NCBI GenBank assembly: GCA_903842455.1
Contig: CAIMLX010000092.1
Location: forward strand, 1 to 52,102
Reading direction: 5' to 3'
From: an uncultured Hyphomicrobiales bacterium
Lineage (GTDB): Bacteria > Pseudomonadota > Alphaproteobacteria > Rhizobiales > Devosiaceae
Length of the DNA: 52,102 nt
Part shown: positions 14,806-47,771 of the stretch, one piece after another
How positions within the stretch are numbered: position 1 is the first letter of the stretch
How the letters are laid out: the number at the start of each line of letters is the position of its first letter
Program-made: the position numbers and the translations under genes
The notes under the pieces: generated by a model
Told to the model about the DNA's origin: nothing
The model's input: the letters and a program-made list of their open reading frames with translations, nothing else
The model's database searches: none

Positions 14806-14820
14806 CAGCCGTAGCCACAT

Positions 14821-14991: not shown

Positions 14992-15056
14992 CCAACGGCC
15001 GCCATCAATACCATCTCGACTGGACATCCCCCTCCCCACCCGTTCAACTCCGCGCC

Positions 15057-28706: not shown

Positions 28707-29923
28707 TTGTTGAACCCCAGGTAACGGCCCACCGACTCGACATCCTTGTCGCCGCGGCCCGACAGGCAGAGCACGATGGTCTCGTCCTTGCGCATGGTCG
28801 GGGCGACCTTCATCACCTGGGCGAGGCCATGCGCACTTTCGAGCGCCGGGATGATGCCCTCGAGGCGGGTGCAAAGCTGGAACGCCTCGAGCGCCTCGTC
28901 GTCGGTAATCGGCGCGTAGGTGACGCGCTTGGTGTCGTGCAGGTAGGAATGCTCCGGGCCAACGCCCGGATAGTCGAGGCCGGCCGAGATCGAGTGGCCT
29001 TCGAGGATCTGGCCGTCGGCGTCCTGCAGCAGGTAGGTGCGGTTGCCGTGCAGCACGCCGGGGCGCCCGCCGGTCATCGAGGCGGCGTGGCCGTTCTCGA
29101 TGTCAACGCCGTGGCCGCCGGCTTCGGCGCCATAGATCTTCACCGAAGGATCGTCTAGGAAGGCATGGAAGGTGCCGATGGCATTCGAACCGCCGCCGAC
29201 GCAGGCGACCACGGCGTCGGGCAGCTTGCCTTCGGCCTCGAAGTGCTGCGCCTTGATCTCCTCGCCGATCACCGACTGGAAATTGCGGACCATCTCGGGA
29301 TAGGGGTGCGGGCCGGCTGCGGTGCCGATCAGGTAGTAGGTGCTCTCGACATTGGTCACCCAGTCGCGCAGCGCCTCGTTCATGGCGTCCTTGAGCGTGC
29401 CGGCACCCGCGGTGACGGCGCGAACCTCGGCGCCGAGCATCTTCATGCGCAGCACGTTGGGATACTGGCGCTCGACGTCGGTGGCGCCCATGAACACCAC
29501 GCAGGGCAGGTCGAACTTGGCGCACACCGTGGCGGTCGCGACGCCATGCTGGCCGGCACCGGTCTCGGCGATGATGCGGGTCTTGCCCATGCGCTTGGCG
29601 AGCAGGATCTGGCCCACCGTGTTGTTCAGCTTGTGGCTGCCGGTGTGGTTCAGCTCTTCGCGCTTGAAGTAGACCTTGGCGCCGCCGAGTTTTTCGGTCA
29701 GCCGCTCGGCGAAATAGAGCGGCGAGGGGCGGCCGGTATAGTGCTTGCCAAGGAATTCGACCTCGGCCTTGAAGGCCGGGTCGGCCTGGGCCTCGCGATA
29801 CGCCTTTTCGAGGTCGATGATCAGCGGCATCAGCGTTTCGGCGACGAAGCGGCCGCCGAAGATACCGAAGCGGCCCTGCTCGTCGGGGCCGTTACGCAGG
29901 GAATTGGCCCCGTGGACTGTCAT
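28703..29923 (-). CDS. trpB: Tryptophan synthase beta subunit, 406 aa
   Basis: This PLP enzyme joins indole and serine. The PLP lysine is Lys98 in [15 protein letters not shown], and the phosphate loop [10 protein letters not shown] is present. AAGGAG lies ten bases before the ATG at 29923. In related genomes trpF precedes trpB in one operon. Here the sequence upstream of trpB is a short spacer followed by the end of a giant coiled-coil gene, so trpF is absent and trpB must have its own promoter. Confidence 0.97.
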
Positions 29924-30117
29924 TCTAGTCTAGCTCCTTACTATCAAAAATCGGACCGACCGGAACATCGAATGACCAGACGCGCAGCAAGCCTCTCGCC
30001 TAAGTTCCCGCACCCTTGGGCCGCCTCTCAAATGAAAACTGGCAATAAGTTGTAGGCTCTTTGCGCTCTACGGCAGTCCACTCACGCAATTGCGGACGAC
30101 CGACCCCACGAGTGCTG

Positions 30118-33100
30118 CTACAAAATCCCACTCCCGTGAGCCAACAGGGTATAGACTTGCCCACGATTGCTGGCGAGCAGCGTCTTCACTGCGGCCTGTG
30201 CATTAGTGCCGGAGGCTTTATTCTTCACTTCCCCCTCAAATTCTGCCATAAAAATATTGGCGCTGTCTCTAAAGGCTGGTTCATTCTGCAGCCTGCTTTG
30301 GGTCAGCTTAAGGAGCGATAGCCCCAGATCAGAATAAATCCCTTCCGAGAAGCTATTCACTTCCCCGACCTGGTACTTCTTCCAAGCTTGCTCGAAAGCG
30401 CTACGCGTGAACAGCTGCTGCGCCTGCGCCTCAATCTCGGCGAGGTAAGGATGCTTGGGCGATTTGACCGACACGGCCTGAGCAGCCCCGGGACGAGTCT
30501 TGGGGGGCGGTGTTGCAGCGGCTAGCTTCTGGCCACTTTCGGGCCGTCCCGCATCACGGCTGCCGTTGGCCGGAGTGCTGACCTCAGCCTGCGCGCGAAC
30601 GAGGTTATTTAGCTCTGATAGCGCCCCAATTTGCTCGGTGACCACCTGGCGCATCCGCGCCGCCGCTGTTTTGGTCTCTTCCGGCAGCTCAAGCACGGCC
30701 CGCGTGAGCGCCGACTTCGTTTGCTCGAGTTGCATCTGGATCTCCTCTGCCACGTCCCTGAGAGAGGCAGCAGTGGACTTGATACTCTTCTGGGTCTCCG
30801 TGAACGCCGCCTGCATCTCACCAATCACCGACACATGCGACGACTTCACCACCTCTCCAGCTCGCCTGCCCTCCACCACCGCGTTCTCAACCAGATTGCC
30901 AATCTGGTTGCTCACCCGCCGTGAGGTCTGCTCAAGCGCATCCTCGAGGCTTTGTGAGTTTCGGTCAAAGGTCGCCTCGAAGGCCTCCTGATTGGTATTA
31001 AGGGTTTCAGCCAGTTTCCGTGCTACACCTGAAACCAGCGCCTGAGTCTTGTCCGCGCTTGAGACCAGCGCGAATTGGACTTTTTCATCGCTGGTTGTCA
31101 GCGCTTCGCTGATCCTCTGAGTCACCAAGCCAAGCGCTGACTGAACGTCGTCAGTCACGCTTCGGACTGCATCCTGCACTTCGTTGGCACTTACAGCTAG
31201 GGTGGTATTCATGGCTTCATGAGCGTTGGCAACAGTATCAACGATCTCGCCTTGGTTCTTCAGCAGCAGGTCTGCAATCGACCTTGTCGCGTCAGCAACA
31301 CGTTGCTCTGTGGCTGTCATACTGCCGTCGACGAGCTCGAGCAGACTCCGTATCGGCAGCGCGACTTGCTCGACACGTACACCCAGTTCCTCGACCAGTT
31401 GCCGCAGCGCCGACTTGTTGGCTTCTACCCCGGCCACAGCCGCATCGCCGCTGTTCACCAGGTGAGCATTGGCCCGCTCCAGTGCCTCCGTACGCTCGAC
31501 GAGCTGACCGGTGATTGCTGACAGATCTGCGCTGGCACCACCCATGGCACGCCGCAGTTCGGCGATATGTGTATCCATCTGCAAACCAGTGACATGCATG
31601 TTTTCCATGGCTTCACGCATGCTTGCGGCATACGCCTCAGTCTGCCTGCCGACGTCGCCCTTGAGCGCCTTGAGTCCCACTTGCGCGAACTCCACCACTT
31701 CCTGGAGGTGCTGACCTGACTCGCCCCACCGCGTAGAAAGTAGGGAAAGCTCTGCGGAAACCTTCGCCGTCGACGTCGAAAGCAATTCCTCAGCCCGAAG
31801 CGAACCGTCCGTCAGCGCCCGCTCCAGTTTCTCACAATGATCTGCGACACTTGCATCCAGTTCGGCGCTCTTAGCGGTAACCAGGGCTGAAAACTCCGAC
31901 GTCGATCTGTCGACTGACACATTCAGCTCGCTCAACTGCCGCACGATTGTATCAGTTGCCGTCAGCGCCGTGTCAGCAACGAGTTCTTCGATGGTCGTTG
32001 CAACCGTCTGCACTTTCTGGAGGGCGATACCCATCGCGTCGCCCATGTGACCGGCCACCGCCTCAACGTCGGTCAGCACTGACTTGGCAACTGAGCCGAA
32101 CCGCTGCGTTACCGTGTTGTCGAGGCGGCTAGCGAGGCCATCAAGCTCACCCATCGAGCCAATGATTGCCTCATTCACCTCCTTGTTAATCTGGAAGAGC
32201 TTGTCTGCAGCGATCTCGACGCGAGCCGAAATGGCCTCAGGAAGCGCCCCCAACCGTTGGTCAAAAATGTCGATAAGGTTCTCACGAGCAGTGTCGGACG
32301 CCTCAGCCATGACAAACGACAGCTTGTCGGCAGCGTCCCGGACTGCGGTGGTTACTTGCTCGACACGCTCGCCAACAAGAGCTTCGGCGTTACCGACATC
32401 AATTAGGGCGTGTTCTACCGCGCGACTGATGTCCTCCGAAACCTTCCCGGCAGTGTTCGAAACCATGTTGGACAGACTTTCAACCCGTCCAGTCACTACC
32501 TCAACCACGCTCGCAATGCTCTGTATCAGGCTATCGCGTACGCCTTCGGCGCTCTCCTGAACCAGACTCACCATGGCCTCGGCGTTTTCGGCGACTTGCG
32601 AGTTAAGCTTCCTGCCATGGGCGGACAGGGCGTCAATACCTCCCTCCATCGCACCACCAATACGCGTAACGGTAGTTGCGACGCTGCTTTCGAGCCGATC
32701 AGTCTCCGCAGTCAGGGTCGCCTCGATTTCCTGCCGCTGCTGTGACAAAGCAACCGTGAGAGCCTTGGAATGCGTCTCTAGCGCACCCAGCACTCCGGCG
32801 GTTTGGGTGGCAACAGTTCGTGACGTCTCCCCATAGGTCGCGGAGAATTCTTCGGTTCGCCGGCTAAGGCCGTCCACGAGATCGCGTGTCTGGCTCTCGA
32901 GGGTAGCATCCAGCATCCTAACCCCAGCCTCGATGGTAGCCCGCATCTGCTCGTGCTTGCCGACCAGCAGTTCACCCAAGGCCCCCGTTCGAGACGATAC
33001 CACGGCGTCGATCGAGACCTCGTGCTCGGTCAACAAGGCTGCCAGTTTATCTCTTAGCGCTTTGAACTTTGACTCGGCTTGTTCGGCCCCCAGCTGCGAC

Positions 33101-36021
33101 AACGCCTCCGCATCAGCCATAATGCTGTCGAGCCGCGCCAAGCTTCCCGAAAGCTGCCCCTCGATCCCGCGCTGACTCTCTGCCAAGCCGTTCTCAAGCG
33201 CTTTGGTTTGTTGGGTAAGCGCTGTGAGGAACACCTCGCTGTGTCCGGCCATCATGCGATCAATGTCGGAAGCACCAGCGCCGAGAGCCTTCCCAACGTC
33301 CTTGCTACCCTCCACGAGCACGGCAACCAGTTCCTCCCGGCGAGTGGTCATCGTCGCGCCAAGCTCGGATATGGACGTACCGACCAACTCACCGAATGTC
33401 GCTGTGGAACCTGATAGTTCGCCTTCTAGAGTGGACATCAGTGCTGCGATATCACCCTTGAGCACATCGACGCTGGCAACTATTCGGCCGTTCGTGTCCT
33501 CGAGGCCGGCGCCCAGTAGCGCCGAACGCTGTTCGATTGCCGCAATCAATGCGCCAGCCCTGTCGGAAAGAATGTCTTCAGTCGCTTGGACGCTACCCGT
33601 GATCCGAGTGGCCACAGCGTCTGCCGCAACAGAGAGTCTCCCTTGGGCTTCCGCGTTCGTTTGCTCCAGACGGGAGGTTAGCTTGTCGAGACCGGCGACC
33701 AAGGCATTTTGTATAGCTTCGCTCTGCTCTGCGAGAGCGTCGGCCAGCGACGCGGATCCGGTTTTCACCGTGTCCTTGAGCTCTTCTGACTGAGACGCAA
33801 TGGCCGACGTCAGGATATCGGCCTGAGCTGTTAGCGCTTGTGAGCTCTCAGAGAGCGCATCCGTCAGGTACCGAGTGCGGTGGGATAGGGTTTCTGTGAG
33901 CTCCCGAGTGCGCAGACCGACGACTTCGTCGAACGTCCCGAGCTTCTCCTCAAGGACGACCTCCAAGAAGGCTGCCCGCGCGGTGAAACCGGATTCGAAC
34001 TTGTCCAATGCACCAGATAGTTTGTTCGCCCGATCCGAAATGCCGTCAGAGATTCCACCTGCACGCAGAGACAGCACTTGATCAAGGCGCTCGGTACCAG
34101 TGTCAAGAGCGGCGAGAAGCTCGCTCGTTCTTGTACCGACACCTTCGACCAGGATACTCGAGCGTCGACTGAGCATTTCGTCGAGCGTATCGGCGTGCTG
34201 CGTGACGAGCGCCTCGAATCTATCTGAGCGCCTGACCAGCGCTAGTTCCAGTTCCTCGCCGCGGCTGCCGAGTGCTTCGTTCAGGCTGGCTACTCGACCA
34301 ACCAACGCTTCGAATTGGCTGGCACGGTTGTCCAATACGGCCGTAAGTTCTGTCGAACTGCCACTGACGGCCGTCAAGATGCGCTCGGCGTTTTGTTCCA
34401 GCACCTCGTTGAATTCCGTTACTCGCGTTAGCAAGGACTCAGAAATATCCTCGTTGCGCGTCTGCAGCGTCTGGTCCAGCGCCTTCATTCGCGCTTCGAT
34501 CGACAAATTCAGTCGGTCATGCTCGTTGCGAATCGCCTCACGGACGCTGGTCGCCGTTGACTGTATATCGGTCGCTATCGCGCCTAGGTTTGTGGCGACC
34601 GTGTCCGTGATCGATGCCCGCACCCCCTTGACCTGCTTTTCGATGCCTTCTGTGCTTTGAGCGATTGCCTCGATAAGCGTCTCGGTCCGCTGCAAATAGA
34701 CGTCGCGCAACTCGGATAGCTCTTGTGAAAATCTGCCGCTCGCAGCGGACAACTCGGAGACGACCGCACCGCCGCGATCACCCAGTGAACGATCCAGTGA
34801 CCCTATCCTGTCGTCAATCTGCGTCACGATCTGATCGACCCGGCCGGAAAAGGCCTGGAGCGCGCTGTTACCTGCGATATCGAAGCGCTCTCGGGAACGC
34901 TCGGAGATCTCCTCCACGCTGGAGTTGAAATCAAGGGCAGCTGATTGCAGTCGCAATTCGATCGCGCCAACCTGAGTATGAAGCTGCTCGTCCAGTTGCC
35001 GAACCAGCCCCGATAGAAGCGTCTCGGCTTCCTTCGAACGCGCCGCTATATCGCTTGAGACGCGGTTGCCGATCGTCTCGAAATTGGACGCCACCTGATT
35101 GCCGCGTTCGCGTATCTGGTCCAGCAAGGTAATACCGCCCTGCCCCAACAGTTTCGCAAGCGACTGTGTACGATAGTCTACGGCCGCGGTGAGGGCACTC
35201 GTCCGTGTCTCCAGCTCCGCCAACAGGTCTTGCGACGAACTCCGAAGGCTTTCGGTCATTGTATTGCCAGACTTTTCGAGGTCGGTCAGAGCGACGCTGA
35301 CTCCCTCCGCGATGGCAGCCCGCACCGCGTCTGTGCCATCCAAGAAGGCCTCGCGCTGCGTCATCAGCGAGGCCGCAGCCTGTTCAGCACGCGCCGCACC
35401 CACCTGATAAGCAGCCTCCACACTCGCCACCTGCTCCGACACCGACCCCCTAAGCGTCCCCAACTGGGAGACCACTCGATCGAGTTCGTCGCTTAAACTG
35501 GCAAGTTCTCGACGCGTCTCCCCAACCTTGGACTGAATCTGCTCAGCGTGAACTTTGTTCGGGTCGGCAACTCGCTCGGCCGACGGGGCCGACCTTGTTC
35601 GCATGCTTAGCCCCACGGCGATGCCGCCAAAAGTCGCCGCCGCAGTAAACAATAAAGCCTGCCAAATCCCCACCACGCTGCCCGCGTCCTCGGACACAGA
35701 ACCAACAATCAGGGCGACGACCATCAGCGCGATGGCCGCAACAACCGCAAGAATCATGCCTGGCCGCGGACCTAGCATGCTAGGACGCAATTGCCGCCTC
35801 GCTAGCGGCGCGGGGTTGTCGTCGTTGGCAACGATGAAGGGGTGGCCGCTTTTGGCGGAGGGATCGATGCGGGTCGACGCGATACGTTCAAGTGCTACCG
35901 TCAGGTCGTCCTCTGACCTTGCGTCTCCATTCAGCTCTGGCTCCAGCAGCGCTGCCTCCACAGCCTCGTAGAACTTAGTGTCTACTACTGCCGACCCTTC
36001 CGCCGCATCCAACGTCGCCAA
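30118..36021 (-). CDS. Giant membrane-anchored coiled-coil protein, GPR/RgsE-like, 1967 aa
   Basis: Translation probably starts at TTG 36021, with AGGGGG eight bases upstream that overlaps the TAG of the preceding small gene. Residues 1-85 are cytosolic, and two TM segments (about 89-108 and 118-139) form a hairpin. Roughly 1650 residues of unbroken helix follow with recurring Ala/Leu-rich 11- and 33-residue-like units (for example RTSELLAALDTGTERLDQVL). The tail after a Pro/Lys linker (about 1840) is globular and ends RGQVYTLLAHGSGIL. From memory, that tail resembles the conserved C-terminus (…GKVYTMLAHAAGRF) of the Growth Pole Ring protein, an apolipoprotein-like scaffold for polar growth in Rhizobiales. 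The GPR link is an inference and the sequence is divergent. Confidence 0.75.
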   Translation of the reverse strand: MATLDAAEGSAVVDTKFYEAVEAALLEPELNGDARSEDDLTVALERIASTRIDPSAKSGHPFIVANDDNPAPLARRQLRPSMLGPRPGMILAVVAAIALMVVALIVGSVSEDAGSVVGIWQALLFTAAATFGGIAVGLSMRTRSAPSAERVADPNKVHAEQIQSKVGETRRELASLSDELDRVVSQLGTLRGSVSEQVASVEAAYQVGAARAEQAAASLMTQREAFLDGTDAVRAAIAEGVSVALTDLEKSGNTMTESLRSSSQDLLAELETRTSALTAAVDYRTQSLAKLLGQGGITLLDQIRERGNQVASNFETIGNRVSSDIAARSKEAETLLSGLVRQLDEQLHTQVGAIELRLQSAALDFNSSVEEISERSRERFDIAGNSALQAFSGRVDQIVTQIDDRIGSLDRSLGDRGGAVVSELSAASGRFSQELSELRDVYLQRTETLIEAIAQSTEGIEKQVKGVRASITDTVATNLGAIATDIQSTATSVREAIRNEHDRLNLSIEARMKALDQTLQTRNEDISESLLTRVTEFNEVLEQNAERILTAVSGSSTELTAVLDNRASQFEALVGRVASLNEALGSRGEELELALVRRSDRFEALVTQHADTLDEMLSRRSSILVEGVGTRTSELLAALDTGTERLDQVLSLRAGGISDGISDRANKLSGALDKFESGFTARAAFLEVVLEEKLGTFDEVVGLRTRELTETLSHRTRYLTDALSESSQALTAQADILTSAIASQSEELKDTVKTGSASLADALAEQSEAIQNALVAGLDKLTSRLEQTNAEAQGRLSVAADAVATRITGSVQATEDILSDRAGALIAAIEQRSALLGAGLEDTNGRIVASVDVLKGDIAALMSTLEGELSGSTATFGELVGTSISELGATMTTRREELVAVLVEGSKDVGKALGAGASDIDRMMAGHSEVFLTALTQQTKALENGLAESQRGIEGQLSGSLARLDSIMADAEALSQLGAEQAESKFKALRDKLAALLTEHEVSIDAVVSSRTGALGELLVGKHEQMRATIEAGVRMLDATLESQTRDLVDGLSRRTEEFSATYGETSRTVATQTAGVLGALETHSKALTVALSQQRQEIEATLTAETDRLESSVATTVTRIGGAMEGGIDALSAHGRKLNSQVAENAEAMVSLVQESAEGVRDSLIQSIASVVEVVTGRVESLSNMVSNTAGKVSEDISRAVEHALIDVGNAEALVGERVEQVTTAVRDAADKLSFVMAEASDTARENLIDIFDQRLGALPEAISARVEIAADKLFQINKEVNEAIIGSMGELDGLASRLDNTVTQRFGSVAKSVLTDVEAVAGHMGDAMGIALQKVQTVATTIEELVADTALTATDTIVRQLSELNVSVDRSTSEFSALVTAKSAELDASVADHCEKLERALTDGSLRAEELLSTSTAKVSAELSLLSTRWGESGQHLQEVVEFAQVGLKALKGDVGRQTEAYAASMREAMENMHVTGLQMDTHIAELRRAMGGASADLSAITGQLVERTEALERANAHLVNSGDAAVAGVEANKSALRQLVEELGVRVEQVALPIRSLLELVDGSMTATEQRVADATRSIADLLLKNQGEIVDTVANAHEAMNTTLAVSANEVQDAVRSVTDDVQSALGLVTQRISEALTTSDEKVQFALVSSADKTQALVSGVARKLAETLNTNQEAFEATFDRNSQSLEDALEQTSRRVSNQIGNLVENAVVEGRRAGEVVKSSHVSVIGEMQAAFTETQKSIKSTAASLRDVAEEIQMQLEQTKSALTRAVLELPEETKTAAARMRQVVTEQIGALSELNNLVRAQAEVSTPANGSRDAGRPESGQKLAAATPPPKTRPGAAQAVSVKSPKHPYLAEIEAQAQQLFTRSAFEQAWKKYQVGEVNSFSEGIYSDLGLSLLKLTQSRLQNEPAFRDSANIFMAEFEGEVKNKASGTNAQAAVKTLLASNRGQVYTLLAHGSGIL

Positions 36022-36030
36022 CTCAGCCCC

Positions 36031-36327
36031 CTACGCACTGGGGGTGCTGCCTTGCTCCCCCATAAACACAGCGGGGCAGCTAGTAGGTTGGGCAGGTCGG
36101 ATGACACCTGCAATCCACACCATTTCCCATCCAGATAGTTCATATTGGATCGGTTTATCGGTTCGGAACTTCAGACAGGCGACTCTCAAAGCGTCTAGCT
36201 GCAGCGGGTCAAGTGGGGGTGCCGACTGTTGCGGCGGCTCACCCCCCGGCCGAACCAAACGCATCGTCGCCATGGCGTCGATGGTGCCGGACGGAGCTAA
36301 GGAGGCCGTTACAAGCATTTCTATCAT
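36031..36327 (-). CDS. Small unknown protein immediately upstream of the giant gene, 98 aa
   Basis: The ATG at 36327 follows AAGAAG. The stop TAG (36031-36033) forms part of the Shine-Dalgarno of the 1967-aa gene nine bases later, so the two are almost certainly co-transcribed and probably translationally coupled. The protein has no TM or cysteine pattern. A central Pro/Gln segment (GGEPPQQSAPPLDP) is followed by a compact domain with LRVACLKFRTDKPIQYELSGWEMVWIAG. I do not recognise it. A further upstream ATG at 36351 in the same frame is possible. Confidence 0.5.
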   Translation of the reverse strand: MIEMLVTASLAPSGTIDAMATMRLVRPGGEPPQQSAPPLDPLQLDALRVACLKFRTDKPIQYELSGWEMVWIAGVIRPAQPTSCPAVFMGEQGSTPSA

Positions 36328-36351
36328 GGTTCTTCTTGGTCGTCGGCCCAC

Positions 36352-36810
36352 ATAGACAGCTTATATATCATTATAGCTAGAAATTTTTTTATTGCTGTTT
36401 ACATGAGCCTAGTTACTCGACAGGTGGTCCATTACCATGTGACGCGACTGCTGGGCGGATCGACTTTACGCTTGCAACTCTTGGTACTCTCGGCTGCAAA
36501 CAGACCAGGATCACCAAACTGGGGTGCCAGATACAGCTAGTCTCAACTGTAGATCGGCTAGCGTGGTTAGGCGGCGGCAATGCAGACGTTGAGAATGCCG
36601 AAAACACCACAGACAAATTGTGATTGGGTCCGGCTGCGACTGCCACGCGTGTCAAACGGGCTCTGAAGCCCGCTGTTGCGCCGCGCACCCGTCCACGGCT
36701 TACGGCCCAGTAGGACACCGAATAACGTTCCCAATTTATCAGTCGCCCCGTCGGCTATCGACCCAGCGCCACAACGTATGGCGCCACCCGCAAAACGAGG
36801 TCGCGCAAAT
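36352..36810. other. Gene-poor spacer with an A/T-rich promoter-like patch
   Basis: Bases 36355-36410 are strikingly A/T-rich compared with everything to the left and contain a TATAAT on the minus strand. The rest has only short frames with no ribosome sites or conserved features; I see no gene in it. Confidence 0.4.
36370..36375 (-). promoter_or_regulatory. Candidate -10 box for the giant-gene operon
   Basis: TATAAT on the minus strand, about 43 bases ahead of the 98-aa gene, preceded by a run of seven A's and three T's. No good -35 is seen at 16-18 bases, so this is a suggestion only. Confidence 0.3.
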
Positions 36811-37080
36811 TCACCCTAGGCTTCTCGCATTCCGACCATCCGCAAGACCCTCTGCAGGTCGCATAGCCCCTTGGCAACCGCCGCACTGGAGGCCCGACTG
36901 CAGGTAGTTGTGAACCAGATGACCGGCTGCCGTGATTGCTTCAGCCAACGAAGTGACGAATTGGCGACGCGCCACTACCGTGCGACCGACCAACGCCTGA
37001 CGACGAGCTTCGATACGATAACCAAACAAGTCCGGCTCGACCGCAACGACTACCACTAGGCCCCTTTCTGTTGAAAACAT
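36811..37080 (-). CDS. Possible small unknown protein, 89 aa
   Basis: The ATG at 37080 follows AAGAGAT. The frame reads MFSTERGLVVVVAVEPDLFGYRIEAR and later RQFVTSLAEAITAAGHLVHNYLQ, then a CGGC cysteine pair. The alternation of hydrophobic strand and amphipathic helix and sensible codon use make it look like coding sequence, but I know no family. The ORF extends further upstream without a credible start. Confidence 0.35.
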   Translation of the reverse strand: MFSTERGLVVVVAVEPDLFGYRIEARRQALVGRTVVARRQFVTSLAEAITAAGHLVHNYLQSGLQCGGCQGAMRPAEGLADGRNARSLG

Positions 37081-37139
37081 GCATATCTCTTCGAAAACCC
37101 ACGCGTCACATGGTCCTCGCACAACAGCGCTGGCTTTCA

Positions 37140-37394
37140 CTATGAGGTGGAGTCTAGCGCGTGAGGGCCCGGATGACGGAACCACGCGCGCGTAAACGAA
37201 CCAGCCCCTTGTTCGCCGCATAGACTGCAGTGCATCCGGCGATGGACGGTGGCGACCGACTGCAAGTTCCCGAACGGCAACGACGCCGGGGTAAACAACC
37301 GAGTGCCGCCACACCGGCTGCAGCAGTACTCAAGCGCTCCACCAGAGCGTCGCAAGTCCCCAATTGTATTAACTGGCCTAGAACGCACTCTCAC
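37140..37394 (-). CDS. Small zinc-ribbon protein, about 84 aa
   Basis: The frame contains NTIGDLRRSGGALEYCCSRCG, then LFTPASLPFG, then RRMHCSLCG. This is the two-CxxC layout with an intervening PASLP segment seen in short zinc-ribbon proteins scattered through Rhizobiales accessory DNA. Translation probably starts at GTG 37394 or GTG 37388, behind AAGGTAGGG. The much longer frame upstream is not coding-like. Its function is unknown; such proteins may bind nucleic acid. It sits in a lower-GC, gene-poor stretch, consistent with acquired DNA. Confidence 0.5.
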   Translation of the reverse strand: MRVRSRPVNTIGDLRRSGGALEYCCSRCGGTRLFTPASLPFGNLQSVATVHRRMHCSLCGEQGAGSFTRAWFRHPGPHALDSTS

Positions 37395-38112
37395 CCCTAC
37401 CTTGCTTGTGCATGGACCGCGGCGTGACCATGCAGTGCGCCACTTGAGTTTGCTGCAAGCGCCCTTGTCGCATTGTCTCGGGTCGATCTGGGGTTCCGAT
37501 TTCGAAGCTACCCCCCCGCAAGACTCACCGCAGCACGAGGTTAATGCGATCAAGGAAAGTACAATTCGCGTTTCGGCGCCACGATGAATACATTTTCGTA
37601 ATTAATGCACCGTCGTGAATACAATTCCCCCCGAAACGTGCCGGAATGTGCTCGCGCATTGTGCACTCAGTCGCCCCATCAGATGGGTGGGCAAGAGTTG
37701 CAGAGCGGAACTATGCTATTCAAGGCGGAACAGACGGTCTCAACCCTCCCGCTCGTTCTAAGGGGGGCGTAAACCTGTTGTGCCGGCGAGGGGTCGCAGC
37801 GCAACGCCCCTCGGCCTGCTGCAGGGGCGCAGGTTGGTATCATGCTGCCGCAATGGCTTCGGCGCCCTAGCAACCTACGTTCATAGCACCTTGTCATTGC
37901 GGCCGATTGTCAGCTCCCCACACTTTAGGGAGACACTGACTTTGGTCAGATTTCGCCTCAACACCGCTTTGCGCGGCGATACTCAAATCGGCATTCTCGC
38001 TACACCTTTCGCCAAGAGCCTCAAGCACGCCCTCAATCCGAAGCGCCAACCTGCGAAATCTCGAGTCCGGCTACCCCGCTCTATTGGCGACGCGAAAAAA
38101 CAGTGTGCGAAC
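37395..38112. other. Gene-poor spacer
   Basis: About 720 bases with mixed composition and only unconvincing frames on either strand. A/T-rich patches near 37550-37630 could be promoters for the minus-strand zinc-ribbon gene. No repeats or RNA genes are recognised. Confidence 0.4.
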
Positions 38113-38457
38113 CTAACGCGCCCCCCCAGGCTGAGCTGCGACCTGCGGTTCCTCGCCAACCTCGCCCCGCCGATAGGGCAATAGATCCATAAGGCCATCC
38201 GGTCCTACGCGTAAAACCTTCACCACGCGAACGTTGGTTCTTAACAGCGACGGTTGTCCCGAATCTGTTGCTGTCCGACGGGGATCAACCTTGCCGCTGT
38301 TCGGCAGCTGATCCTGATCTTGCCCCGGCAACGCCTCCACCGAAATCCTTATTTCGAACCTTGGCATGACTAATTCAGCTATTGGTTTTGCAATAAATAT
38401 TGCTGCCGCAATAGCAAACAGTGCGACCACTATTACTCGTTTCACTCTCGACCGCAT
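38113..38457 (-). CDS. Small single-pass membrane protein, 114 aa
   Basis: It begins MRSRVKRVIVVALFAIAAAIFIAKPIAELVMP: a basic start and one TM (about residues 8-30), so the remaining 80 residues face the periplasm or the protein is exported. The tail contains NVRVVKVLRVGPDGLMDLLPYRRGE and a Pro/Gly/Ala-rich end. It lies 82 bases downstream of the 1097-aa coiled-coil gene in the same direction, with GGTGA near the start. No family is recognised. It could be a membrane partner of the giant proteins. Confidence 0.55.
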   Translation of the reverse strand: MRSRVKRVIVVALFAIAAAIFIAKPIAELVMPRFEIRISVEALPGQDQDQLPNSGKVDPRRTATDSGQPSLLRTNVRVVKVLRVGPDGLMDLLPYRRGEVGEEPQVAAQPGGAR

Positions 38458-38539
38458 TCACGTCACCAGCCACAATTTAAATTGCAGAGAGAAGGTGGAC
38501 CGCAACACGAACGCGCCGAATATTTTTCCACGACATCCG

Positions 38540-41500
38540 CTACTCTTGGGTCTCGGATTCCGACTTTGAATTCTTACCCCGACGCGAGCTTCCGTTCCCG
38601 ATGGATTGCGTTACCACGCCATTGAGTGCCACCAATCGATCCACGGTCACCTCGGCAGCCCGTCGTGTGCTTTCCTCAACAAGCTGCGTGGCCTGCTCGA
38701 TACGCCTCACCGCCGATTTTTCCTGACTGGCCAACCTCGACAATACAGCCTCACTGCTGCTGCTAAGGTTCTGCTGCACCTGGTCGACCGTCTGAGAAAC
38801 CTGTTTCACCAGCTTCGCCGAAACCTGCGCCAAGGTTTCCGCCGACGCTTCGGTTGAACGAGACACTGTTGTCTCGAGGTCGCGATTGGACTGGCGGAGG
38901 AAGGATCCGACCGAAGCAGTTGCTTCGCCGATCGTTTCTCGCATCTGTTTAATGCTGGACGTCAGCCCCTGATTGAGTTTTTCCGTCTCAGCGCCGAGCG
39001 CCGCCCGCAGGCTCTGCGCCCCGCCACCAATCCGCTCGAGCAGACCATCGGTTTCGCGCTCAGCCACTCGCCCGACCTCCTCGATACCACTCGATATGAC
39101 CTTGTCCAGAATTGCTACTCTTGCATCAAAAGCCGTGAGCAGCCCGGATTTCTCCCCTTCAAGCAGGCGCGCAATGTCGGCCGCGAAAGACTCCAGTTCT
39201 CCGCGCAGCATCGTCGTCTCATCTGAGATCGACCCTCTGAGTCCGACCGTACGCGCCCTCAGTTCTTCGCGCACTTTGCCAAGATGGTCTTCGGAGTCCG
39301 CCGCAAGCTTTGCAGTCCCCGCGGCAATGCCGCTGCTTATCTTTGTACCGGTATCAGCCAGCGTCTGTTCAAACTCGTGGGAAGCGGCGTGCAGTCGGTC
39401 AGTGAACTCCTGCCCGCGCGATCGAATGATCGCTTCGAGCACCTGCCCACGCGCCTCCAGCACAGTCTCGATGACATTGACCTGCCGCTCAACTTCCTGT
39501 GCGCGCTTGACATCCGCGTCCTCAGCGATGGCCTTTAGGCGCACCAAGTGCTGTTCCAGCGCCGTTTCCAGTTGTTCGTTACCCCCTACCAGGAAGAGCT
39601 CAAGGCTCGAGACCTTCTGCGTCACGACCCGCTGCATCCGGCCGGCTTGGTCCTCAATCCGATGCGTGGCGTCCGCAACCGCGTCCTCCAAGCTACGTGT
39701 CCGTCCGTCCAGTGCACTCTGGAAGGAGGCGGTACGGACGGAGAATCCATTCACCAACTCAGATATGACTCGATCCAGCGGCACAGTCGCTGCCGCCGCC
39801 GCAACGCTGAAATCGCGTTTTGCGGCCTCCATTTGCGTAGCTACGCCCGTGATGATTTCTTGTGCCGAGCTTGTAAGGTCGGCTGTCGCCGCCCGCGCGC
39901 CCTGCGCAATGTGATCGGCGGCCCGCCTTGACGATGACTCGAGCCGCGCTTCGTCCTGCTGAACCTCTTGCTGCAGCTTATCGACGGCACCTGCAAAGAC
40001 CGACCGGAGCTGCTCAGTGGCCGCTGCTATGGCAGCGGATATCGCTGAGGTATCTTGCACCAACCGCTGGCGATCGCTTTGTAGTGAAGCCTCCCGCGTG
40101 GACGCAAGCTGCTGGGAGTGCTGGCTCAGCAACGTGCCATAACGGTCCGCTCCCGCATCAAGTCCACGCTCGATAGAAGCTAACTCCGAACCGAGACGCG
40201 CCGACAGTTCCTGAATCCCGTTTTCGACAATTGCCGACAATTCATCGGCGATGCGCGAATTGAGCTGGTTATGCTCGGCCGTCGCGATGCTGAACTTGTC
40301 TGTCGACATACTGATCGTGTCACGCATCGCCTGTAGCGCTGACGTCAAATGGTTTGCACGGTCATCAACCAACTCGAGAGAGCCTTCAAGCGTATCCGCC
40401 ATCCGAACGGATAGTTCCTGGCCAGCCTGGACCAGCTGACGCTGAAAGCCCGTCAGCTCCATGGTGAGTTTATCTGCTAGTCCCAGCGCATCGACCGACA
40501 GCGTGTGATGCAACTGCCCCGCACTGTGTTGCAGGGTATCGGTGATCTGCACAGCAGCAGAAATGCGATCGCCCGCCTGATCCAGAGCCGGCATTAGGCT
40601 CCCCTGCAGCTGCCCAGTCATCTCCTCGAGCTTAGCCATGCGGCGACTGACGTCGTCGTTAATCTGTTCGATCCGCGCGACCCACGCCTCACCCGCCTTG
40701 CCCCAGGACTCCTCGACCTTCGCCGATATCTCATTGCTACCGGAAGCGACAACGCGCAGGTATTCGGCCGAACTGCTTTGCAGACGACCTTCGAGCCGCG
40801 TTGCCGCGCCGTCCAGTCCCTGGCTAATGAAGTCCTCGGCGCCCTTGAGGTGCTCCATCGCCGAATTGGACCGCGCGTCCATCACATCATTGAGCCGATC
40901 CAGCGCCGAGCTCAACGCTGCCCGCAACTCGTCTTGATGACCTTCAAGCACAGCCCTAACGCTCGTTGCGCCAGCCGACATAAGTTCGCCGGCCGACCGT
41001 AACCCTTCGTCAAGCCGGATCACAACGGGATCGATCCGTTGGGTGACAACGTCATTAACCTTCTGCGCCATGCCCTCCGCCACGCCGGCCAAGATGGCGG
41101 TGATGTCAATATTGACTTCTTCAAGTGTACCGCGAACGTAATTGCCTGACTCAATGAGCTGCCTGCTGACATCGAGCAACTCGCTGCTCATCGCCTCGCG
41201 TGACTCCTTCACCACGCTCCGTACCTGATCGGTCGCACCAACCACAGTGTCGCGCTGCAACGACAGCTCATGCACCAGAGTGCTCAGACGTAGCTCGTTG
41301 TCAGAAAAGGTTCGCTCAAGCGCCTCAACCTCTCGCCGAATCCGGCTTTCGATCTCAACTGTCTTGTCAAGGCTGCGGTTCAGCTGTTCATTCAGCGCCT
41401 TGAGCTCACTGCTGACCGCACTGCGGATTGGCAATATATTACTGCCCGCCCACGACGCTGGTTCAGAGAACCGTTCAATGCTGGCTGCGAGCCTTTCCGA

Positions 41501-41833
41501 CGCCGTTTCGAAGTCGTCCATCCGACTTCTAATGCTGCCCATGAGCCGGACAACGATGAGGGGCAAGGCTGCGATGAACACAGCTTGAGCCGATTGCATC
41601 GACGTCCAAAACTCCGCCGAAACCAGCCGATCTAAGTTCGGAAGCAGATGCGCGACAGCGATTGCGGCTGCCCAGAGTCCCGTCCCAACCAACGCCAGCA
41701 TCTCGTTAGTCGCTGGACGTGACTCCCATTCCGCCTGCGGTTCCGCCCGGTTGTACCCGCTATCATTGGCCGACGCGCGCGCCTCGCCATTGCGAGTTGG
41801 GCCACCTGCCGCCCGGACACTCTGGATCTTCAT
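38540..41833 (-). CDS. Large membrane-anchored coiled-coil protein, GPR N-terminus-like, 1097 aa
   Basis: The start ATG 41833 (MKIQSVRAAGG) follows GAGAG; the frame stays open to 41938 but the extra residues look non-coding. Two TMs (about 45-64 and 82-100) form a hairpin. Then comes a segment containing SIERFSEPAS, IRSAVSSELKALNEQLNRSL and IRREVEALERTFSDNELRL, which matches from memory the conserved region after the TMs of GPR/RgsE. Some 850 residues of continuous helix follow (units such as ALDGRTRSLEDAVADATHRIE), ending in a Lys/Ser/Glu-rich tail. It lacks the GPR-type C-terminal domain, which is present in the downstream 1967-aa protein. Confidence 0.75.
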   Translation of the reverse strand: MKIQSVRAAGGPTRNGEARASANDSGYNRAEPQAEWESRPATNEMLALVGTGLWAAAIAVAHLLPNLDRLVSAEFWTSMQSAQAVFIAALPLIVVRLMGSIRSRMDDFETASERLAASIERFSEPASWAGSNILPIRSAVSSELKALNEQLNRSLDKTVEIESRIRREVEALERTFSDNELRLSTLVHELSLQRDTVVGATDQVRSVVKESREAMSSELLDVSRQLIESGNYVRGTLEEVNIDITAILAGVAEGMAQKVNDVVTQRIDPVVIRLDEGLRSAGELMSAGATSVRAVLEGHQDELRAALSSALDRLNDVMDARSNSAMEHLKGAEDFISQGLDGAATRLEGRLQSSSAEYLRVVASGSNEISAKVEESWGKAGEAWVARIEQINDDVSRRMAKLEEMTGQLQGSLMPALDQAGDRISAAVQITDTLQHSAGQLHHTLSVDALGLADKLTMELTGFQRQLVQAGQELSVRMADTLEGSLELVDDRANHLTSALQAMRDTISMSTDKFSIATAEHNQLNSRIADELSAIVENGIQELSARLGSELASIERGLDAGADRYGTLLSQHSQQLASTREASLQSDRQRLVQDTSAISAAIAAATEQLRSVFAGAVDKLQQEVQQDEARLESSSRRAADHIAQGARAATADLTSSAQEIITGVATQMEAAKRDFSVAAAAATVPLDRVISELVNGFSVRTASFQSALDGRTRSLEDAVADATHRIEDQAGRMQRVVTQKVSSLELFLVGGNEQLETALEQHLVRLKAIAEDADVKRAQEVERQVNVIETVLEARGQVLEAIIRSRGQEFTDRLHAASHEFEQTLADTGTKISSGIAAGTAKLAADSEDHLGKVREELRARTVGLRGSISDETTMLRGELESFAADIARLLEGEKSGLLTAFDARVAILDKVISSGIEEVGRVAERETDGLLERIGGGAQSLRAALGAETEKLNQGLTSSIKQMRETIGEATASVGSFLRQSNRDLETTVSRSTEASAETLAQVSAKLVKQVSQTVDQVQQNLSSSSEAVLSRLASQEKSAVRRIEQATQLVEESTRRAAEVTVDRLVALNGVVTQSIGNGSSRRGKNSKSESETQE

Positions 41834-42137: not shown

Positions 42138-42638
42138 ATGATCTGTCGTTTCGGGAATGGTTTCCGTCGGAGTGCACTGGTAGCTGCGCTCGCGCTGCTC
42201 ACTGCGCCGGGTACAAGTGCCGCGGAACTGCGGCTCACCTGGGTTGCGGACGAACGTGTGGTGCATGAGACAGTGGTCGATCTGCCGCAACTGGACGAGC
42301 TGCCGCAGACAACCCTTGTTACCAAGACGCCGTGGACGTCAGGTATGACAACATTTGTCGGCCCAGAACTCGGCACGTTGGCGAAGTTGGGCCCGGGGAA
42401 CGCCGTTTCCGCGGATCTCCACGCTTTGAACGACTACAGCGCTTCCGTCCCGGCCGAGGATTGGATCGATTATGATGTGATCCTAACGACAAGAATCAAC
42501 GGCGCGGCGCCGAGGGTCTATGAGAAAGGGCCTTACTGGCTTATGTACCCACTTGATCAGATGCCGCAGCCCACGCCACAGATTTACATCACACGAATGA
42601 TCTGGCAGGTTGATTCAATTAGGTTTTATATTGAATAA
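42138..42638 (+). CDS. Secreted molybdopterin-oxidoreductase-fold protein, 166 aa
   Basis: A signal peptide (RRSALVAALALLTAPGTSAA) precedes a small domain with LDELPQTTLVTKTPW, TTFVGPELGTLAKLGPG, ALNDYSASVPAEDW and KGPYWLMYPLDQM. This is the short form of the oxidoreductase molybdopterin-binding fold found next to membrane sensor kinases in alphaproteobacteria. The mature protein has no cysteine, so it cannot ligate molybdenum like sulfite oxidase; a ligand-binding sensor role is more likely. Its last codons overlap the histidine kinase gene. Confidence 0.8.
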   Translation: MICRFGNGFRRSALVAALALLTAPGTSAAELRLTWVADERVVHETVVDLPQLDELPQTTLVTKTPWTSGMTTFVGPELGTLAKLGPGNAVSADLHALNDYSASVPAEDWIDYDVILTTRINGAAPRVYEKGPYWLMYPLDQMPQPTPQIYITRMIWQVDSIRFYIE

Positions 42639-44295
42639 GAATTCAATTCTTTGGTATGGCGCCGCAACCGCGCTCGGCATAATGATGATTGTGTCGACTG
42701 TTTGGGTGTACCAAAGTTACGTTGCACAGAGAAATGAACTAGATACCACAGTCCGCACATCGGCCTGGATTGTGTTTCAGACTGCACTCGAGTTCAACAC
42801 ATTGGATGCAGCTCTATCTGTATGTCGCCAGAACAAGGTGTGCAATGGCGAAATGGTCCTTCTTCGTGCAGAAATATTTGCATCTCGTCTGGATGTACTG
42901 GCAAATTCGGCTGAGACCGATATGTTGAATTTTGTCGGGCCGTACAAAACTACTTTGAATGACACATACCGAAAGCTATCGGCTGTTTTTCGTCGCTATC
43001 CGCCGGAATTGGCTGAGCTTAAGGGTGGAGAAATTTTAGCGGCGGTGGCAAATGAAGTCGGCGGCTTCAGGGTTACGCTTCAGCAGATCCTGCGTGACGC
43101 CACCATCTACAACTCCGATATCGAGCAGCGGGCGGCACTGCTATCCTCGACCGATCCGGCAATTCCATTTGCCGGTTTGTGGGCGTCGGCCGTCGCCCTG
43201 ATTCTTTCGTTGGTGGTGCAGGTCAAGCGAACGCGTCGTGTCCTGAGCGAAGTTCAGAGCCTCCGCCGCGACGATTACGAGCGACAGCGAAGTACAATAA
43301 ACCTCCTTGATACCCTGCGTTCACCGATCATCGTCGTCTTGGCCGACGGAACCGTCGCTTACTGCAACACCGCCGCTAAACAAGCCTTTGGCGTCTCCCA
43401 CGGACAGCAGGAACCGTTCGCGCTTATGCCAGACCTGATGACAGTGTGCGCTCCAGGCGGTAGCGGCGTAGTTTCGATCGAGACGCTGACGAAAGGTCGA
43501 CGCTCTTTTCAATGCAGCGGCAACACGTTTGCCTGGTCTGGCGCCGCCGCAACCTTGTATGCTCTAAACGACAACTCCGTTGAGCGCGATGCGCAGCTGG
43601 CAGCCATCGAGACTGGCAGGCTGGTCGTTCTGGGTGAATTGTCATCTTCGATCGCACATGAGCTGAGTCAACCCCTGTCAACGATTAAAATGGCTTCGCT
43701 GAATGCCAGAATGCTGCTGGCCAAGGGGGCGGCGGACGCCGCTAACCAAAAGCTCAACCGCATCGACGACCAAGTAGACCGAGCCGCACGTATCATCAGC
43801 AACATCAGGAAGCTTGCCATACCAAACAAGACGGAGGGCATTTTCAACGTCCGCAAATCGATCGACACCTGCATCAGTCTGGTTGGGCAGCAGTTCGCCG
43901 TTGCCAACTTGCGCATTCACACGGACTTTCATTGCGCCATCGAGCCGTTGGTTAACGGCAATTCGACCCTGTTTGAGGTCGCGGTAACGAACCTGTTGAT
44001 CAACGCACGGGACGCCTTTGTCGGCCGTTCCCTTACCGGCGGCGATGGCGTTGTTCGAATCTCAGTCGAGTGTGGGGAGAGGCTCCTCATTGTTGTGCGC
44101 GACAATGCGGGTGGAATCGAACCGGCGATACTGCCGCGCTTGTTTGAAAGCTTTGCGACCACCAAGATGGGGGTGGGTATGGGGCTTGGGCTCTCTATCA
44201 GCCGGCGGTCGATTGAAGACATGGGCGGTTCATTGGTCGCAGCAAACGACTCGGAGGGAGCGGTGTTTACCATCGAGGTTCCGGTGGCAGCATGA
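42631..44295 (+). CDS. Membrane sensor histidine kinase with PAS domain, 554 aa
   Basis: TM1 lies at about residues 7-28. A periplasmic domain of roughly 150 residues contains Cys65 and Cys71 (VCRQNKVC). TM2 (AGLWASAVALILSLVV) leads to a coiled linker and a PAS-like domain (LRSPIIVVLADGTVAYCNTAA). The kinase core has H343 in SSSIAHELSQPLSTIK, DctB/NtrB-like, then NLLINARDAF, RDNAGGIEP and GMGLGLSISR. The start is a TTG: 42631, overlapping the preceding stop with AGG seven bases ahead, is preferred over TTG 42610. It presumably senses the secreted partner and phosphorylates one or both regulators encoded next. Confidence 0.88.
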   Translation: MNKNSILWYGAATALGIMMIVSTVWVYQSYVAQRNELDTTVRTSAWIVFQTALEFNTLDAALSVCRQNKVCNGEMVLLRAEIFASRLDVLANSAETDMLNFVGPYKTTLNDTYRKLSAVFRRYPPELAELKGGEILAAVANEVGGFRVTLQQILRDATIYNSDIEQRAALLSSTDPAIPFAGLWASAVALILSLVVQVKRTRRVLSEVQSLRRDDYERQRSTINLLDTLRSPIIVVLADGTVAYCNTAAKQAFGVSHGQQEPFALMPDLMTVCAPGGSGVVSIETLTKGRRSFQCSGNTFAWSGAAATLYALNDNSVERDAQLAAIETGRLVVLGELSSSIAHELSQPLSTIKMASLNARMLLAKGAADAANQKLNRIDDQVDRAARIISNIRKLAIPNKTEGIFNVRKSIDTCISLVGQQFAVANLRIHTDFHCAIEPLVNGNSTLFEVAVTNLLINARDAFVGRSLTGGDGVVRISVECGERLLIVVRDNAGGIEPAILPRLFESFATTKMGVGMGLGLSISRRSIEDMGGSLVAANDSEGAVFTIEVPVAA

Positions 44296-44693
44296 TTGGA
44301 GGAGAACACGCCGAGACAGTACTGATCTGTGACGACGAAATTGACCTGGTTGCTGAGCTTGGAGACTTATTCGTGGCCTTCGGCTGGGGAACAGTCACCA
44401 GCCATACGTATCCTGAGGCTATCGCCGCGTTGACGGAGGGTATTCCAGTCAGTTGCTTACTCACCGACCGAGCAATGCCGGGCGGCAGCGGCGACGACCT
44501 GATTGCTTTCGCGCTGAGCCTGCCAGTTCAACAGCGCCCCAAAGTGCTTGTCCTCATGACCGGCGTGCCAGACCTGAGGGCGAATAGTAGCGAGGCGCTA
44601 GCCGACCTCATTGTAGAAAAGCCCTTCGATCCTGCCTGGTTGCAGGAACAGATGACACGCCTCTTGCACCGTAACCACCGAGTAGACGAATGA
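44292..44693 (+). CDS. Single-domain response regulator, 133 aa
   Basis: It is receiver only, with the acidic pair ICDDE (Asp14, Asp15), phospho-acceptor Asp59 in LLTDRAMPGGSGDDL, a Thr in LVLMTGV and Lys110 in VEKPFD. There is no output domain. It overlaps the kinase gene by four bases (ATGA) and the next regulator gene by four, so the three are translationally coupled. It may be a phosphate sink or a relay between kinase and the DNA-binding regulator, or act by protein contact. Confidence 0.9.
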   Translation: MIGGEHAETVLICDDEIDLVAELGDLFVAFGWGTVTSHTYPEAIAALTEGIPVSCLLTDRAMPGGSGDDLIAFALSLPVQQRPKVLVLMTGVPDLRANSSEALADLIVEKPFDPAWLQEQMTRLLHRNHRVDE

Positions 44694-45433
44694 CCTCCAA
44701 GACCCGGGTGCTCCTCGTAGACGATGAGGAGCCATTGGCGGAAGAGCTAGCCGATTTCCTCAGGATAAGTGGCCTGACGGTAGTTGTTCGTCACAATGCA
44801 ATCGACTCCCTCCAGGCTCTCAATACCGATCCAACAATCTCACACCTCGTGACGGACATTTCGATCGGCCCCCTCAGCGGGCTCGAATTGCTGCGGAAGG
44901 TCAAGCAGACATCACACGGTGCGCGCCTGCGCTGCATCGTCTTCTCGGGACATGCAAGTGTCGACAATCTGCTCGCCGCGCTGCGCCTGGGTGTTGCCGA
45001 TTTCCTCCCAAAGCCAGTGGGGGGCCACGAACTGCTCGATGCGATACGGCGCTGCTCTGCACCAGACGTAGCGCAACGAGTTGAGGCGGCAACGCCTCTT
45101 GATACGGCATCATTGCTGTTGGCAGCGCGCAAGCGACGCGATGCCCTTTTCGGACCCGAGCTGTTTGATGATCCCGTCTGGAACATGTTGCTCGACCTGC
45201 GCGACTCTACCCTGCGCGGCAAGCCGGTCACTGTCAGCGACCTGTGTTCGGCCTCTGGTTCGTCTCAGACAACCGCACTAAGGCGCTTGAATGAACTCCA
45301 GGCTATGGGACTTATAGAACGCAGTCCGGACTCCCAAGATAGGCGACGAATATTCGTGCGGTCGACAGAACGCGGCGACCGACTTATGGAGACCTTCGCT
45401 ACTTGGTTCTCGTCAATGGTCGGAGCGGGGTAA
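44690..45433 (+). CDS. Response regulator, receiver plus MarR-like winged helix, 247 aa
   Basis: The receiver has LLVDDEEP, phospho-acceptor Asp56 in HLVTDISIGPLSG, GHAS and Lys108 in DFLPKPVGG. After a linker, residues about 155-240 form a winged-helix domain: MLLDLRDSTLRGKPVTVSDLCSASGSSQTTALRRLNELQAMGLIERSPDSQDRRRIFVRSTERG, with the DxRR wing of MarR-type regulators. REC fused to a MarR-like output is uncommon compared with OmpR or NarL outputs. It ends the four-gene operon. Confidence 0.9.
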   Translation: MTSKTRVLLVDDEEPLAEELADFLRISGLTVVVRHNAIDSLQALNTDPTISHLVTDISIGPLSGLELLRKVKQTSHGARLRCIVFSGHASVDNLLAALRLGVADFLPKPVGGHELLDAIRRCSAPDVAQRVEAATPLDTASLLLAARKRRDALFGPELFDDPVWNMLLDLRDSTLRGKPVTVSDLCSASGSSQTTALRRLNELQAMGLIERSPDSQDRRRIFVRSTERGDRLMETFATWFSSMVGAG

Positions 45434-45483: not shown

Positions 45484-45750
45484 CTAGCGCATGGCGATAG
45501 ACAAAAACCACCCGACAATCCCGCTGGCAACCGAAGTCCCACCGACAGCGATCGCCGACAGATAATGGCCTGATACTGCCAGCCAGACTATGCTCCACAA
45601 TATCAATGACGGAACAACCGCAAAAACGACGATCTTCTGAAATCTGCTGAGATGATCCTCAGCGACCCGGAAGTCCAACTCCGGAAAGCGAGTCGTCCGA
45701 CTTTCGTCTTCTGGCGACCGCCATTTCGATCTCGCCGACTGATTATTCAT
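45484..45750 (-). CDS. Small two-TM membrane protein, 88 aa
   Basis: The ATG at 45750 has a perfect GAGGAGGT five bases upstream, so the first in-frame ATG (45768) is not used. A charged 40-residue cytosolic part precedes two TM segments (VVFAVVPSLILWSIVWLAV and IAVGGTSVASGIVGWFLSIAM). The GG/ASG pattern in the second helix suggests helix packing or oligomerisation. It resembles the DUF2335 or phage-holin-like small membrane proteins only in size and layout; no family is assigned. Confidence 0.7.
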   Translation of the reverse strand: MNNQSARSKWRSPEDESRTTRFPELDFRVAEDHLSRFQKIVVFAVVPSLILWSIVWLAVSGHYLSAIAVGGTSVASGIVGWFLSIAMR

Positions 45751-45795
45751 TCTGACCTCCTCACACACAACCCCAGACCCAGCCGCAAAAGCATT

Positions 45796-46936: not shown

Positions 46937-47083
46937 GACACACCTCCACGTAAATCGAACGAGGAAGCGGCAAGCGGGTCAACACAGAATGCATCCAGTA
47001 CGAACGTGATGTGACGCTGCCGTCTGTCGTTTTGCTACCGCCGCCATTCCGTCTCGTTGCAGGCACTGCAACTGTGACATCTG

Positions 47084-47731: not shown

Positions 47732-47771
47732 CTGCGACTAACCCTCCCAGGTCGTATACTTGTGGCGCTTT

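Follow-up and report, generated by a model that had tools for sequence, protein, structure and literature searches.

Are two giant membrane-anchored rod proteins, encoded one after the other in an uncultured Hyphomicrobiales bacterium (Devosiaceae), a single growth pole ring protein (GPR; RgsE in Sinorhizobium meliloti) that has been cut in two, or something else? The question arises on contig CAIMLX010000092.1 (C92) of assembly GCA_903842455.1, which was analysed over its entire 52,102 bases (the window) and belongs to a genome, G000, of 4.56 Mb in 280 contigs. The original prediction had described both products as coiled-coil membrane proteins that together look like a split GPR. As claimed, the two genes lie on the minus strand in the order short, then long. 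The short gene (38540..41833) encodes 1097 amino acids (aa) from an ATG at 41833, the mechanically called open reading frame (ORF) starting upstream of it at 41938, and the long gene (30118..36021) encodes 1967 aa from a TTG start; the 2.5-kb gap between them contains a small ORF (38113-38457). Given the short gene's base composition, frames of 1097 and 1967 codons would remain free of stops by chance with probabilities of about 2e-18 and 2e-32. Each protein has two segments with hydropathy above 1.5 (residues 88-106 and 122-140 of the long protein, 46-64 and about 77-101 of the short), the next-best windows lying below this limit at 1.41 and 1.18 for long and short as listed. These define a transmembrane (TM) hairpin in the long protein (residues 88-140, 35602..35760, minus strand) and in the short one (residues 46 to about 101, 41531..41698, minus strand).

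Long helical rods, almost free of proline, were also found as described, but the term coiled coil has to be given up: the hydrophobic period is 3.65-3.66 in long, short, canonical GPR and RgsE alike, which is that of a hendecad (11/3), apolipoprotein-like helix, a classical coiled coil having 3.5. Consistent with this, the Apolipoprotein A1/A4/E family PF01442 (gathering score 90) was matched with 166.9 bits in 11 stretches of the long protein and 101.9 bits in seven stretches of the short, compared with 218.2 bits for the canonical GPR of the same assembly and 257.8 for RgsE. PF01442 is the family noted for GPR (PMC8262873), and 237 such proteins are counted there in 225 Rhizobiales species, so that the published figures already imply a few species with additional copies.

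Both window proteins were significantly homologous to the canonical GPR of their own assembly and to S. meliloti RgsE, and on the strength of these alignments we class both as GPR/RgsE homologues, as first proposed. The RgsE used for comparison was that of S. meliloti strain Ak57, with 2089 aa the same length as the published RgsE (PMC7327166). In its source record (L014, CP090106.1) this RgsE is annotated as 'kinesin'; the record itself, 3.7 Mb long and titled pSymB, carries folP and cytochrome bc1 genes and looks chromosomal. Searching the own genome with each of the two proteins (E <= 0.001) returned a single other locus, an open frame of 2037 codons on contig C79, which yields from its first ATG a canonical GPR of 1994 aa, the full-length copy that the original prediction had suggested looking for. 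It has an Hpt-like gene upstream, as does S. meliloti RgsE (the Hpt being 45% identical over 42 aa to that of S. meliloti). The window pair is not at this Hpt-linked position, and the short proteins and the accessory long proteins each group on a separate branch; the pair is thus made up of paralogues and not of GPR itself. Over a 158-residue block, the long rod reaches 49% identity with canonical GPR; outside this block, identity between the two rods and the canonical one is mostly 20-31%. The peptides named in the original prediction align with canonical GPR as well, IRREVEALERTFSDNELRL with IHNEVTALERTYSDNESRM and VYTLLAHGSGIL with VYTMLAHASGRLG. Canonical proteins (n=24) range from about 1400 to 2100 residues, which places the long protein inside the range and the short one below it; a GPR-like protein of 3155 aa was seen in an Enterovirga metagenome assembly (L094:1683-11150).

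How the parts of GPR are distributed over the two chains was examined with hidden Markov models (HMMs) of the N-terminus, head and tail, built from 24 canonical GPRs (those of 20 relatives, whose canonical loci were taken whole, and of the window assembly, genomes G009 and G016, and S. meliloti), and controlled by shuffling each of four proteins 100 times. The tail HMM gave 78.1 bits for the long protein (against no more than 6.6 in 100 shuffles of it), 79.5 for the copy in genome G012 and 57.6 for the long protein of G009, all shuffles scoring at or below 7.1; the four short proteins scored -0.3 (window), 1.4 (G009), 2.0 and 0.3. The match corresponds to a C-terminal globular domain (residues 1853-1966, 30124..30465, minus strand), predicted to consist of six helices with a mean predicted local distance difference test (pLDDT) of 84 and a predicted template modelling score (pTM) of 0.76, for which no match was found in the PDB by sequence (E up to 0.1) or by fold (E <= 0.001). 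The HMM of the membrane-proximal half of the head (headA), which gave 207 bits for the same-assembly canonical protein and 169 for RgsE, recognised the short proteins with 67.1 bits in the window (residues 102-198, 41240..41530, minus strand), 75.8 in G009, and 52.5 and 28.4 for two of G016; the long proteins scored weakly, with 29.0 bits in the window and 6.2 in G009. The full head HMM, however, aligned in register with residues 147-307 of the long protein (35101..35583, minus strand) at 74.1 bits, against 27.4 for the best other rod position, so that the head of the long chain is diverged, not absent, which speaks against a neat split. The distal half of the head was found in register in the long protein, with 28.3 and 24.3 bits; for the short proteins, the three best matches listed in each case included none in register with it. 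The N-terminus ahead of the TM segments was recognised neither in the short proteins nor in the long ones from window, G012 and G009 (<= -0.8 bits).

A further HMM covered the rod end, the block just before the proline-rich linker, and drew on at most 27 canonical proteins, the 24 above plus three from other families, with rows holding little sequence in the block dropped. It scored 115.8 bits in the long protein (residues 1682-1806, 30604..30978, minus strand), 113.0 in RgsE and 40.6 in the long protein of G009. A few common residues had raised the suspicion that the C-terminus of the short protein is itself a GPR rod end, but the four short proteins scored 14.2, 13.6, 11.4 and 11.0 bits with this HMM, which is the background level and leaves the idea unsupported.

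The long protein is therefore best described, judging from these scores, as a nearly complete, divergent GPR with TM hairpin, rod, rod end and C-terminal domain and a weak membrane-proximal head, and the short protein as a membrane-anchored hendecad rod that carries a GPR head and has neither the rod end nor the proline-rich linker nor the C-terminal domain. The literal splitting of a gene is rejected, since both chains have a hairpin and a rod of their own and the long one alone spans nearly the whole GPR architecture. What survives of the original prediction is that the short protein keeps the head better and that the tail is found only in the long one; by sequence, the pair is two paralogues with complementary losses and not one GPR cut in two.

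A tree of the head region (37 rows, 32 distinct, 189 columns) placed the four short proteins on one side of a branch with support of 100/100 and three accessory long proteins, two of them near copies, on another (100/99). With 19 of its 29 inner branches open and several long end branches, the tree leaves the placement of short and long relative to the canonical genes unsettled. Using an HMM made from three short proteins, those of G000, G009 and G016, we found full-length short matches in three of 19 genus genomes, which are the source genomes of that HMM; at E <= 1e-40 eight of the 19 matched, the other five through the canonical head only. At E <= 1e-55 three of 136 family genomes matched, and in an even sample of the order one of 397, the window's own. 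Because up to five candidates per genome were scored in the family search and up to two in that of the order, diverged short proteins can escape, as did a 733-aa short protein of G016. Three species have an intact short gene, and the copies outside the window are 45% and 27% identical to the one in it. Of 61 genomes, G012 and G009 were listed with near full-length relatives of the long protein. Canonical GPR is also present in the window assembly, G009 and G016, and in G012 there is one truncated by a contig end. The 3.0-Mb genome G016 encodes five GPR-like proteins, a canonical one of 1612 aa and others of 1219, 1081 (short), 1513 and 733 aa (short), of which the 1513-aa and 733-aa proteins form a long/short pair that flanks a 143-aa gene and adjoins genes for an OmpA-domain protein and a lytic transglycosylase.

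The pair lies in an accessory arm that runs 22 kb from 29923 to the contig end, with a G+C content of 0.58 from 29923 onward compared with 0.665 to the left, in agreement with the lower-GC accessory DNA described earlier. Third-position G+C is about 0.66 in the coding sequence of the GPR pair and 0.85-0.89 in trpB, the helicase gene and canonical GPR. At the junction of the trp operon and the arm (29790..29923), 133 bp are identical to the end of another contig of the assembly, C195, whose terminal 133 bases equal window positions 29790-29922 at the start of trpB and which runs through trpB neighbours ordered as in G012, a trpF-like gene and further genes by eye. The window arm is thus one of two continuations at trpB, and could reflect an insertion that some members of the population carry, a duplication or a misassembly; a ribosome-site-like AAGGAG ahead of the trpB ATG, identified by eye, favours a real junction. 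Whatever the junction, the pair is real, because G009 carries it on a 395-kb contig.

Between the window assembly and G012, the long gene shows a synonymous divergence (dS) of 0.056 and a ratio of nonsynonymous to synonymous divergence (dN/dS) of 0.20, with 81.5 synonymous and 49.5 nonsynonymous changes, against a dS of 0.50 and a dN/dS of 0.057 for canonical GPR (1848 codons) in the same comparison. A dS nine times lower than that of canonical GPR suggests that the long gene, or DNA holding it, was exchanged recently, and the dN/dS indicates that the gene is under purifying selection. Similarity to G012 extends from 30017 to 36299, beyond which the flanks are unmatched in that genome and in part repeat one another in inverted orientation. 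The short gene was not found in G012, an absence that means little in a genome that is 87% complete and whose contig ends close to this place. An IS21-like frame beside the G012 long gene, noticed by eye, had no Pfam match and remains a suspicion. Megablast returned no close plasmid relative of the arm, and a scan of it for RNA families at gathering scores returned none. The same low-G+C arm also holds, at 46592-49082, genes for a MucR/Ros-type regulator, a ParA/VirC1-like ATPase and an acyl-CoA-ligase-like protein.

Divergent from the short gene, a two-component block on the plus strand comprises a 166-aa small protein (42138..42638) with a signal-like hydrophobic stretch at its N-terminus by eye, a histidine kinase with PAS, HisKA and HATPase_c domains (42610..44295), a single-domain response regulator (44292..44693; Response_reg 29.1 bits, narrowly missing the gathering score of 30.2) and a response regulator with a MarR-like winged helix (44690..45433). 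The ends of these four genes overlap. Tail to tail with the last of them stands, on the minus strand, a gene for a 94-aa protein with hydrophobic segments by eye (45484..45768), an arrangement found in both the window and G009. The small protein has no Pfam or NCBIfam match, and its single-sequence fold prediction (pLDDT 47) was not used. In G009 the pair, the block and the 94-aa gene occur together, with identities of 54% over 138 aa for the small protein (49% in G016), 37.5% over 552 aa for the kinase, 48% and 52% for the two regulators and 39% over 69 aa for the 94-aa protein, but the pair adjoins the small-protein end of the block in the window and the regulator end in G009. That gene content has been kept through rearrangement is the best evidence of a functional link. 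At E <= 1e-25 the larger regulator was found in four of 136 family genomes, namely the three with short proteins (51-53% identity, G016 twice) and G031 (35%). One of the two copies in G016 stands in a four-gene block, with the 94-aa gene not found in its 20 kb, and at the other site the regulator alone was found; the block in G031 is weaker.

We consider it most likely, with a probability of roughly 45%, that the pair is an accessory polar scaffold in which short and long are co-assembled under control of the adjacent two-component system. Using their TM hairpins and rods, the two chains, possibly with canonical GPR, would build a membrane scaffold at a growth zone, to which the short chain may supply head contacts and the long chain an effector end. 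The two-component system would turn the pair on under some condition, and polar growth might thereby be slowed, branched or moved while the normal ring is retained. In favour of this reading stand the homology of both chains to GPR and RgsE, their complementary HMM scores, the separate branches of short and long proteins, the recurrence of pair and block in G009, the presence of close relatives of the larger regulator in the three genomes with full-length short proteins, and the purifying selection on the long gene. Like GPR (Agrobacterium tumefaciens Atu1348) and RgsE (S. meliloti SMc00190), the pair has the TM hairpin and the PF01442 hendecad rod, with the head mainly in the short chain and the rod end and C-terminal domain in the long; unlike them it consists of two chains with complementary losses, is accessory and additional to the canonical gene, and lies beside a two-component block and off the Hpt-linked position. 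Agrobacterium GPR without its 332 C-terminal residues still formed paired ring-like foci but had lost its function, and beside wild-type GPR it gave broader cells with branched poles (PMC8262873), from which it follows that a tail-less chain can enter a ring. The short protein resembles these deletion constructs in having hairpin, head and a rod without its end, and differs from them in being natural, diverged, shorter in the rod and paired with a long paralogue. As a natural counterpart of the tail-less deletions, accompanied by a long protein that has the missing end, it favours a co-assembled accessory scaffold, with interference as the second choice.

GPR is large and hard to dissect, and how it organises polar growth is stated to be unknown in PMC8262873; here evolution seems to have separated the head from the effector end and to have kept the two together over a large divergence. 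If the pair works together, the roles of head and tail become separable for testing, and if the scaffold reading is true, a core growth scaffold can be duplicated, placed under signal control and exchanged between species. While GPR and RgsE are already known, the complementary-loss pair, the link to a two-component system and the exchange between species are, as far as we searched, apparently new: the accessible parts of PMC8262873, PMC7327166, PMC9239152 and PMC10259793, within a literature search that did not extend to most subscription papers and bioRxiv preprints, contained no report of GPR paralogue pairs. It is doubtful that the pair is, more boldly, a horizontally exchanged two-subunit growth-pole machine, in which head and effector end would be divided between the obligate partners of a mixed ring with its own two-component switch, driving a second growth zone or mode beside the normal ring.

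Several observations weigh against a co-assembled accessory scaffold. Two more long paralogues in G016 retain both the head (headA 126.4 and 96.7 bits) and the tail (97.7 and 40.0), with rod-end scores of 8.5 and 26.2 bits, so that head loss in the long protein is confined to the lineage of the window and G009 and head/tail complementarity is evidently not universal. The linkage of pair and block rests on two loci, and no GPR gene was found within 20 kb around either regulator copy of G016. No common DNA dyad stood out in the seven upstream regions compared, taken from GPR genes and genes of the block, the best pattern occurring in two of the seven, as it did in 15 of 15 shuffled sets, and a 2.5-kb gap separates short and long in the window. 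G009 and G016 are metagenome assemblies whose gene content, including co-presence of the canonical gene, depends on binning, and the join between arm and trp operon is doubtful, so that the host of the window copy is not secure. Finally, Agrobacterium GPR without its 221 C-terminal residues lost its polar foci in depleted cells (PMC8262873), and tail-less chains are therefore not uniform in behaviour.

A possible, if not a probable, alternative is interference, in which the tail-less short protein would enter the canonical ring and halt or redirect polar growth, with the long protein as a modulator and with no separate ring. The short protein is like a naturally occurring C-terminal deletion, and the 332-residue deletion of Agrobacterium GPR enters the ring and disturbs cell shape (PMC8262873); the canonical gene is present in all three of G000, G009 and G016. 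The 158-residue block of the long rod could permit mixing with canonical GPR, but the low identity of the rods outside it may prevent this, and the long protein keeps a rod end and a tail for which an inhibitor would have no use.

We think it rather unlikely that the pair is GPR by descent only and now serves as a membrane scaffold that has no part in wall growth and instead, for example, anchors a replicon or an envelope structure at the pole. A ParA-like gene (47084-47731) lies in the same arm as the pair, but nothing corresponding to it was found in the 34 kb searched in G009, and Agrobacterium GPR was barely enriched at replication origins by chromatin immunoprecipitation (PMC9239152). In favour of such a role, GPR rods are apolipoprotein-like and may bind lipid (PMC8262873), and OmpA-domain and transglycosylase genes adjoin one G016 long/short pair.

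That the two genes are decaying accessory paralogues with no present function, carried along on exchanged DNA, seems improbable. They are accessory, of lower G+C content, differently flanked in G012 and known from few species, and constraint on the long gene is weaker than on canonical GPR by the dN/dS values given above. Both frames are nevertheless intact against the chance values stated at the outset, purifying selection acts on the long gene, and the short gene has stayed intact in three species despite its low identities.

An anti-phage motor subunit like ZorA of Zorya, with which the pair shares (in rod matches only) a long cytoplasmic helical rod on a membrane anchor, can be all but dismissed: PADLOC ZorA models match both proteins (E down to 5.7e-27 for long and 1.1e-15 for short), and a G016 OmpA-domain protein matching ZorB models (E 2.9e-14) adjoins one long/short pair, but the same models match canonical GPR about equally (3.7e-25) and RgsE better (7.1e-31), none of the ZorA rows shown has its best stretch starting before profile position 219, each protein has two TM segments only, a motor domain of the MotA/ExbB/TolQ type was sought in both proteins and not seen, and the NCBIfam cut-off of 190 bits is far off at 28.8 (long) and 20.4 (short). 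No OmpA/MotB-type match, as expected of a ZorB partner, was found among ten window neighbours scanned. The PADLOC ZorA models match canonical GPR and RgsE through their rods (L014:5515-11784, L015:6693-12677), and defence annotation may therefore mislabel GPR proteins.

A phage tape measure or rod protein was also considered and rejected. A match of both proteins to an unrelated phage or plasmid family would have refuted the original prediction, and this outcome did not arise: the PHROG matches were modest and confined to the rods (34.3 bits, E about 1e-8, for long and 19.9 bits for short); a search of phage records that covered the short protein, not the long, gave no match at E 1e-5. The small ORF between the two genes (38113..38457, minus strand) encodes 114 aa with an N-terminal hydrophobic segment by eye and had no relative among the libraries and loci searched. 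Farther to the left, at about 14805-14993, the window contains one copy of a dispersed repeat of some 180 bases, which occurs on both strands at dozens of sites in its own genome and in G012.

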